This document shows, piece by piece, positions 43,640 through 55,140 of a DNA stretch of 64,000 nucleotides (positions are counted from its first letter, which is position 1; each line of letters begins with the position of its first letter). Source of the stretch: Thalassobacillus devorans MSP14. Lineage in GTDB: Bacteria; Bacillota; Bacilli; Bacillales; Halobacillaceae. The notes under the pieces are model-generated. The model saw only the letters and a list, made by a program, of their open reading frames with translations. It was not told where the DNA came from and searched no databases. A program made the position numbers and the translations under genes. The stretch is from the NCBI RefSeq assembly GCF_000496835.1, contig NZ_KI543237.1, positions 908,641 through 972,640 on the forward strand, in the 5' to 3' direction.

Positions 43640-43726
43640 CATTCACCAGCTGCCTTCTCCACTTTGTTCATGAATAAGCCGCCCATTGAATATGATGTAA
43701 AAAACGCTGTGAAGCGAGGTGAAATG

Positions 43727-44320
43727 ATGGATTTGTCCATAAATGACTTCAATGACTGTGACCTGCCATTTTGTGCTCAGACGAATGACACAGCTCCCTC
43801 CTTCCAGGCGGAAGCCTATGATAACACCACCAAAAAAATCATTCCGATCAACTTGGAAAACTACCGGGGCAAATGGGTAGTGCTGTTTACCTTTGTATGA
43901 CCGACAGAATTAGCAGCGGTCGCTGCTATTCATCCCCATTTAAAACAATTGAATACAGAAGTGTTAGCCATCAGCACCGATAGTGTATACGCTCATAAAA
44001 TATTTACAGAAACATCGCCATCTGCTTCCCTGGTCACATTCCCCCTTGTAAGTGACCGGACGCATATCATCAGTAAAGCATACAGGGCCTTCAATCCAAA
44101 AACGGGAGCCGCTTTTCGCGTCACCACTATTATTGACCCGGAAGGCGTAATATCTGCCAAGCTGGTCAACCCGCCAGAGGTCGGCCGTAACGTACCAGAG
44201 ATTTTGCGTTTGTTACAAGGAATACAATATGGAAGAAGAACAGGCGAAGGCGTCCCGGCAAATTGGATGCCAGGACAGCCGGGAATCAAGCGGGACCCCA
44301 ATATGATTGGTAAAATATAA
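43727..44320 (+). CDS. Selenocysteine-containing peroxiredoxin (UGA at the catalytic position)
   Basis: This is an AhpC/Prx1-type peroxiredoxin, a thiol peroxidase. The two open parts (43727-43897 and 43901-44320) are in the same frame and separated only by TGA at 43898-43900. The surrounding residues are LFTFV-U-PTELAAV, exactly where peroxiredoxins have the peroxidatic Cys (FTFVCPTEL). The UGA is therefore read as selenocysteine, residue 58 of a 197-residue protein. A SECIS-like hairpin follows. The catalytic Thr (U-3) and Arg (FRVTTIID) are kept. No Cys occurs after U58, so there is no C-terminal resolving Cys; an N-terminal C11-x4-C16 may serve instead. The start is ATG 43727 (AGGTG 5 nt upstream) or 43724. 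Confidence 0.85.
43907..43931 (+). promoter_or_regulatory. Bacterial SECIS-like hairpin
   Basis: GAA-T-TAGCAGC (43907-43917) pairs with GCTGCTATTC (43922-43931) around a GGTC tetraloop at 43918-43921, with a single bulged U at 43910. The loop starts 17 nt after the UGA. E. coli fdhF SECIS has a GGUC loop about 18 nt after its UGA and a bulged U on the 5' side, both contacted by SelB. The match in loop, bulge and distance is close. Confidence 0.85.
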
Positions 44321-54870: not shown

Positions 54871-55140
54871 AAAAGCGCAAGCGCCTTGCTCACCCCCGAC
54901 AAGCTTAAGACAAGCCTCGCCGTGACTTTCTTTGTACTTTTAGTCAAATCAAGTTTAATAAAGGTTTAAAGTATAAGTAAAACTAAGACTTTCGCCATAC
55001 ACCCTTGGCGATAAGCCAAGTTTTTCTAATCACAGAGAGGATTGACTTAAGACCTCGAGGGGGTAGGCGCTGGCCGATGAAAACGCCACGTCCTGTGGCG
55101 ACATCGGCACTAGCACGTCCTGTGCGTCGGAGCTGGATGG
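54871..55140. repeat. Intergenic repeat copy 2, with two insertions
   Basis: Same family as 13370-13486. The shared blocks are split by a 95-bp insert (54935-55029) between TTTG and TCACAGAG. There is also an extra segment of about 58 bp holding two CACGTCCTGTG motifs (55087-55133 region) between GCTGG and AGCTGGATG. Copy 1 lacks both, which defines the insertion points to within a few bases. Confidence 0.75.
54935..55029 (+). mobile_element. 95-bp hairpin repeat nested inside the larger repeat (copy B)
   Basis: Related to the sequence before narG (2298-2371). CTTGGC-GATAA-GCCAAG followed by TTTTTCT forms a terminator-like hairpin that overlaps an alternative TCGCCA/TGGCGA stem. Its clean insertion into another repeat shows it moves or moved. 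There are no obvious terminal inverted repeats or target duplication; an IS200/IS605-derived element is one possibility. Confidence 0.5.

Follow-up and report, generated by a model that had tools for sequence, protein, structure and literature searches.

A probable selenocysteine peroxiredoxin of the Bacillales and an 18-nt active-site deletion in its Thalassobacillus devorans MSP14 copy

Within the stretch of Thalassobacillus devorans MSP14 DNA analysed here (64,000 nucleotides; hereafter the window), a peroxiredoxin frame is crossed by a TGA codon at the position of the peroxidatic cysteine, which raises the question of whether this codon ends a protein or is read as selenocysteine (Sec). 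A mechanical listing of open reading frames returns the locus as two pieces of 78 and 123 amino acids (aa). Read through the TGA (Table 1; translation may instead begin from an ATG at 43724), the product scores above the curated Pfam cut-offs for AhpC-TSA (87.5 bits, 8.8e-25), 1-cysPrx_C (25.8 bits, 1.1e-5) and Redoxin (28.3 bits), and the AhpC-TSA match together with a predicted peroxiredoxin (Prx) fold places it in the peroxiredoxin superfamily. A sequence-only reading of the locus had proposed that the TGA at 43898-43900 replaces the peroxidatic Cys codon, with peroxiredoxin in frame on either side; this is what is seen, and Pfam agrees. A relative from Cytobacillus spongiae (WP_225003809.1) is annotated as a full-length peroxiredoxin across its own TGA. 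On comparative grounds we conclude that the gene very probably encodes a Sec peroxiredoxin (Sec-Prx) of AhpC/Prx1 fold, in which UGA is read as Sec by means of a hairpin and a deletion has shortened the active-site loop, probably impairing the product.

Table 1 Features of the Sec-peroxiredoxin locus, in window coordinates
Feature	Position	Strand	Details and basis
Sec-peroxiredoxin CDS (probable)	43727..44320	+	197 residues with TGA read through; homologues
AGGTG, ribosome-binding-site-like, just 5′ of start	43717..43721	+	sequence
In-frame TGA, peroxidatic position	43898..43900	+	residue 58 in window; residue 64 in T. cyri
Junction of 18-nt in-frame deletion relative to congeners	43888..43889	+	FYASDF missing; three codons before TGA
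SECIS-like hairpin UAGCAGC-GGUC-GCUGCUA	43911..43928	+	folding, conservation, codon constraint

The genome carries the full set of genes that marks a bacterial user of Sec. In the window's assembly (G000; 3.94 Mb in 9 contigs, 99.99% complete, 0.7% contamination), selA (525.6 bits; cut-off 267.9), selB (331.6 bits; cut-off 242.25) and selD (404.5 bits; cut-off 125) share one stretch with selC, the gene for tRNA-Sec (61.9 bits; gathering score 47; anticodon TCA). Absence of these four genes had been named in advance as evidence against the Sec reading, and all four are present, from which the genome is probably able to insert Sec. Because selD (L009, 12459-13514 of G000:C1) has an in-frame TGA of its own at residue 18 (AG-U-GC), SelD is probably a selenoprotein too. 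Across the family, 9 of 44 genomes have a selA match above the cut-off, and all five genomes of the genus are among them; at G024:C1:2816041-2817410, selA appears as two overlapping matches with a frameshift-like split.

The TGA is conserved well beyond the genus. A search of 397 genomes of the order gave 54 close homologues at E < 1e-46, the next match lying at 2.8e-37, and exactly one TGA is present in 52 of the 54, the window copy included. The other two are L072 (genome G219), which has Cys, and L102 (genome G385), which has two TGA codons and one TAA and a frameshift 3′ of the Sec site. The alignment of homologues that the sequence-only reading had proposed thus shows the pattern by which bacterial selenoproteins are recognized, an in-frame UGA conserved alongside Cys in another homologue. 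TGA also stands at the site in all of the best 80 of 121 loci from named relatives (L183 included). Random stop codons and frameshifts in relatives, which had likewise been named as evidence against a Sec codon, did not appear: among the relatives examined, the frameshifted copies are L102 and L142 alone, the latter from Rossellomorea aquimaris SAMM and disrupted near its N-terminus. Two loci titled Pseudomonas sp. ISL-84 (L139) and Chryseobacterium sp. ISL-80 (L162) carry a Bacillales-type Sec-Prx, and these titles look wrong; Bacillus sp. J33 has two copies of the gene (L116 and L137).

Occurrence of the gene follows that of selA. At a threshold of E 1e-80, selA is found in 181 of the 397 sampled genomes of the order, a count with which the remark that Sec use is rare in Bacillales does not survive. 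It is present in 52 of 52 genomes with the TGA-containing gene versus 129 of the 345 others (Fisher 1.8e-20, relatedness not corrected, two 397-genome draws being taken as the same sample). A separate search of G219, the genome of the Cys homologue, gave no selA match at E 0.001, and G385, the genome of the frameshifted copy, has a selA match. Within the genus, Sec-Prx is missing from two of five genomes. G041 and G043, both of the window's genus, have selA above the cut-off and no Sec-Prx match, so they likely carry other selenoproteins; as for FdhA as another Sec client, an internal stop was found in 0 of the 23 matches listed for the five genus genomes.

Just 3′ of the TGA lies a hairpin with a 7-bp stem (43911-43917 paired with 43922-43928) and a GGUC loop (43918-43921) that starts 17 nt after the TGA, and to this extent the SECIS-like element of the sequence-only reading stands. 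For a 47-nt piece the folding energy is -12.4 kcal/mol (z -3.16), and 0 of 200 shuffles fold as well. The bulged U and the lower stem of that reading also appear in the MFE form, but the lower stem is lost in most relatives, and the U at the unpaired place is invariant but is also forced by the Leu codon. Over 79 loci, the fourfold third positions of codons +5 to +8 are each limited to two bases (entropy 1.00, 0.47, 0.47 and 0.96 bits) and that of codon +9 has an entropy of 0.70 bits; third positions of codons +12 to +54 range from 1.38 to 1.97 bits, and codons -1, +1 and +2, outside the hairpin, are also lowish at 1.20-1.38 bits.

Pairing was assessed on 95 distinct sequences, with the Cys homologue L072 left out. 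Standard pairs fill 97.4% of hairpin cells versus 94.1% in shuffled alignments, and the covariation score is 0.264 versus 0.188, each as high in 0 of 500 shuffles; on two of the five covariation measures, however, the doubly changed pairs (2) and the further pair types (7), 63 of 500 shuffles do as well in each case, and 91.7% of cells still pair when the structure is slid by -3 columns. Pair 18-27 is the main covarying pair (A-U in 57 sequences, G-C in 29, G-U in 9), and no variation is seen in three of the seven pairs. A conserved stem-loop just 3′ of UGA, as in other bacterial selenoprotein genes, is thus present, with mixed shuffle results, and the synonymous-site constraint together with mainly one covarying pair indicates that more than the coding of the protein maintains the hairpin. 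In L072 the hairpin is not kept. The hairpin covariance model, run on the five genus genomes with 150 of about 2000 first-look candidates scored per genome, finds the three known genes; three further matches (E 0.68-0.88) were taken as chance. An Rfam gathering scan of the window does not list the hairpin; the same scan reports a Bacillaceae-1 RNA at window positions 55062-55126 (39 bits; gathering 35). Together, the presence of the machinery, the conserved TGA, the occurrence of the gene only with selA, the constrained hairpin codons and a Cys homologue that has neither hairpin nor selA strongly support, by comparison, Sec insertion in the window product.

Among the curated NCBIfam families, PrxU (NF040737) matches best, with 148.1 bits for the window protein, 163.2 for that of T. 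cyri and 173.7 for that of T. devorans; all lie below the curated cut-off of 270 bits, and Cys-type proteins score up to 211 bits against the same model. Scores against TIGR03137 are 125.3-153.7 bits (cut-off 272). Of 398 Bacillota genomes, 48 have a PrxU match above the cut-off, and each of these 48 matches contains at least one TGA. A tree of 64 chosen rows resolves PrxU as one clade (100/99) and Sec-Prx as a separate clade of 31 rows (98/93); the Cys homologue L072 sits inside the latter, which fits a Sec-to-Cys change. This tree includes the paralogue L227 on a very long branch (4.37); according to a warning from the program, false joining may affect 3 Cys rows and 17 others, so that its root and the sister group of Sec-Prx are tentative. 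Both a profile search and Foldseek give typical 2-Cys Prx and AhpC structures as the best PDB matches, and the models of the window and T. cyri proteins both match such structures. The genes make up a genuine family of Sec peroxiredoxins, which is common in the sampled Bacillales and ranks as a subfamily within a known kind.

The family has no Cys at the C-terminal resolving column that characterizes typical 2-Cys peroxiredoxins: of the 56 Sec-clade rows none has Cys there, the residue being V in 49, I in 3, T in 3 and L in 1, and of the 18 Cys controls all do. An N-terminal Cys, Cys16, is present in 50 of the 56 Bacillales-clade rows, 0 of 4 other Sec rows, 1 of 30 PrxU rows and 0 of 18 Cys rows. 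Because six clade rows and all four Sec rows from outside the class do without it, Cys16 marks the Bacillales Sec-Prx clade but cannot be a universal resolver. Four TGA-containing members of Sec-Prx, L233, L234, L241 and L242, come from Bacillota outside the window's class and have no Cys at this column.

We suggest that SelB and tRNA-Sec would decode UGA as Sec, guided by the hairpin just 3′ in the coding RNA, and that the Sec selenol would attack peroxide. As the protein does not have the C-terminal Cys that usually acts as resolver, reduction of the oxidised Sec would probably fall to the N-terminal Cys16 or to an external thiol. Genomic context names no reductant, since no neighbour family exceeds 24 of 80 loci (79 named loci and the window), the frequency of the commonest one, and the window is absent from all 13 neighbour families listed for these loci. 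It is conceivable, though we consider it doubtful, that the Bacillales Sec-Prx is a class of its own, with peroxidatic Sec, no C-terminal resolving Cys and Cys16 as resolver, and that the window deletion is a natural variant of its active site; such a class would give aerobic Gram-positive bacteria a selenenylsulfide peroxidase.

The window copy differs from the rest of the family at the active site. T. cyri and T. devorans read WVVLFFYASDFTFVU and the window lacks FYASDF, a gap that occurs in 1 of 108 aligned homologues, the window alone (56 Sec-clade rows including L072, 4 other Sec, 30 PrxU and 18 Cys rows). The intact loop before TxxC/U that is expected of a competent peroxiredoxin is thus present in the congeners and missing from the window, which keeps the active-site Thr and the Sec codon despite the deletion. 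With six active-site-loop residues missing, the earlier description of both sides of the TGA as fully conserved has to be given up; of the proposed fast peroxidase without a C-terminal resolving Cys, the absence of that Cys is borne out, but speed becomes doubtful for this allele because of the shortened loop.

Outside the deletion, the gene is under strong purifying selection. Between the window and T. cyri, dN is 0.042 and dS 0.34; when codon changes are polarised with T. devorans, the window branch carries 11 synonymous changes and no nonsynonymous one, the T. cyri branch carries 10 synonymous and 3 nonsynonymous, and unpolarised changes between the two number 14 synonymous and 13 nonsynonymous. 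Such selection on the remaining gene, together with a gap seen in the window only, implies that the loss is recent, tolerated or an artefact. AlphaFold2 models of the window and T. cyri proteins have mean pLDDT values of 87.5 and 86.5, and the loop between strand 50-55 and the next helix shrinks from nine to three residues; as the deleted protein retains a confident Prx fold in its model, misfolding from the deletion is unsupported, and the models, though they locate the loss, give no sign that activity is lost. The deletion in this strain is apparently recent, and the shortened protein is probably still made and probably impaired.

Four other accounts of the locus can be weighed against this evidence. 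That the TGA simply ends translation and the halves are two separate small proteins, as the pieces of 78 and 123 aa would have it, is hardly credible in view of the co-occurrence with selA in 52 of 52 genomes, the codon constraint in the hairpin and the low dN/dS on both sides of the TGA. The window protein might instead belong to the clostridial PrxU family (NF040737) and not to a separate subfamily, since PrxU is its best NCBIfam match (148.1-173.7 bits with the congeners) and shares with it the TGA at the peroxidatic position and the lack of a C-terminal resolving Cys; this is very improbable, however, because the scores fall far under 270 in a range where Cys-type proteins reach up to 211, and because the PrxU clade (100/99) stands apart from the Sec-Prx clade (98/93).

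The deletion itself admits two further explanations. The window copy may be a decaying pseudogene whose activity the deletion has destroyed, even if read-through goes on and a dead protein is made. This would fit a window-only loss of 18 nt of highly conserved active-site sequence, in a family in which frameshifted copies exist (L102 in G385, and L142) and which is missing from two of the five genus genomes, but the deletion preserves the frame, none of the 11 polarised changes on the window branch is nonsynonymous, and the TGA and hairpin are intact; we regard decay as rather unlikely, although a chance to be taken seriously. It is unlikely that the 18 nt are missing through an error of assembly or sequencing and that the true gene is intact as in T. 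cyri and T. devorans. A gap in a single row of 108 and strong purifying selection on the rest of the gene would fit such an error, but an in-frame loss of 18 nt would be an unusual type of error, and the assembly, in 9 contigs, is 99.99% complete with 0.7% contamination. We favour a Sec peroxiredoxin that is still made, with a shortened and probably impaired active site.

Passages of a 2026 review describe selenoproteins as rarely retained in aerobic bacteria and cite Sohling 2001 for PrxU of Eubacterium acidaminophilum (PMC13188914), and Sec peroxiredoxin with TxxU is listed as a known family there and in part of a second article (PMC9312934). Excerpts of other papers count three selenoprotein families in Bacillales (PMC1794560), report Sec-Prx in 78 organisms (PMC5029168) and describe PrxU as raised in ore-grown Sulfobacillus (PMC7409299); the excerpt of PMC11076775 apparently concerns a topic other than Sec insertion. 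A description of the Bacillales Sec-Prx was not found in the titles and excerpts among the literature matches listed, and the family may have been noticed earlier. Many of the Bacillales species that bear Sec-Prx grow aerobically. With selA in 181 and Sec-Prx in 52 of 397 genomes of the order, the family offers a convenient system for asking why selenium chemistry directed at peroxides is retained in Bacillales. The window allele carries an unusual active-site deletion within a known kind of Sec-Prx and, if real, would serve as a natural experiment on how far the active-site loop of such an enzyme can be shortened.

In the E. coli fdhF SECIS, a GGUC apical loop lies about 17-18 nt after the UGA. 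The window hairpin has the same apical loop at a similar distance from its UGA; unlike in fdhF, it is the short upper stem alone that is conserved among the relatives of the window gene. Like PrxU of Clostridia (NF040737), the protein has an AhpC/Prx-like sequence whose gene carries a TGA and which lacks the C-terminal resolving Cys (present in 0 of 30 PrxU rows), but it falls in a separate clade, it and its congeners score below the NF040737 cut-off, and the Cys16 column, which has Cys in 50 of the 56 Bacillales-clade rows, has it in 1 of 30 PrxU rows. With typical 2-Cys Prx and AhpC (TIGR03137) it shares the fold and the FTFV-x-PTE motif, and it differs from them in having a Sec codon in place of the peroxidatic Cys and no Cys at the resolving column.
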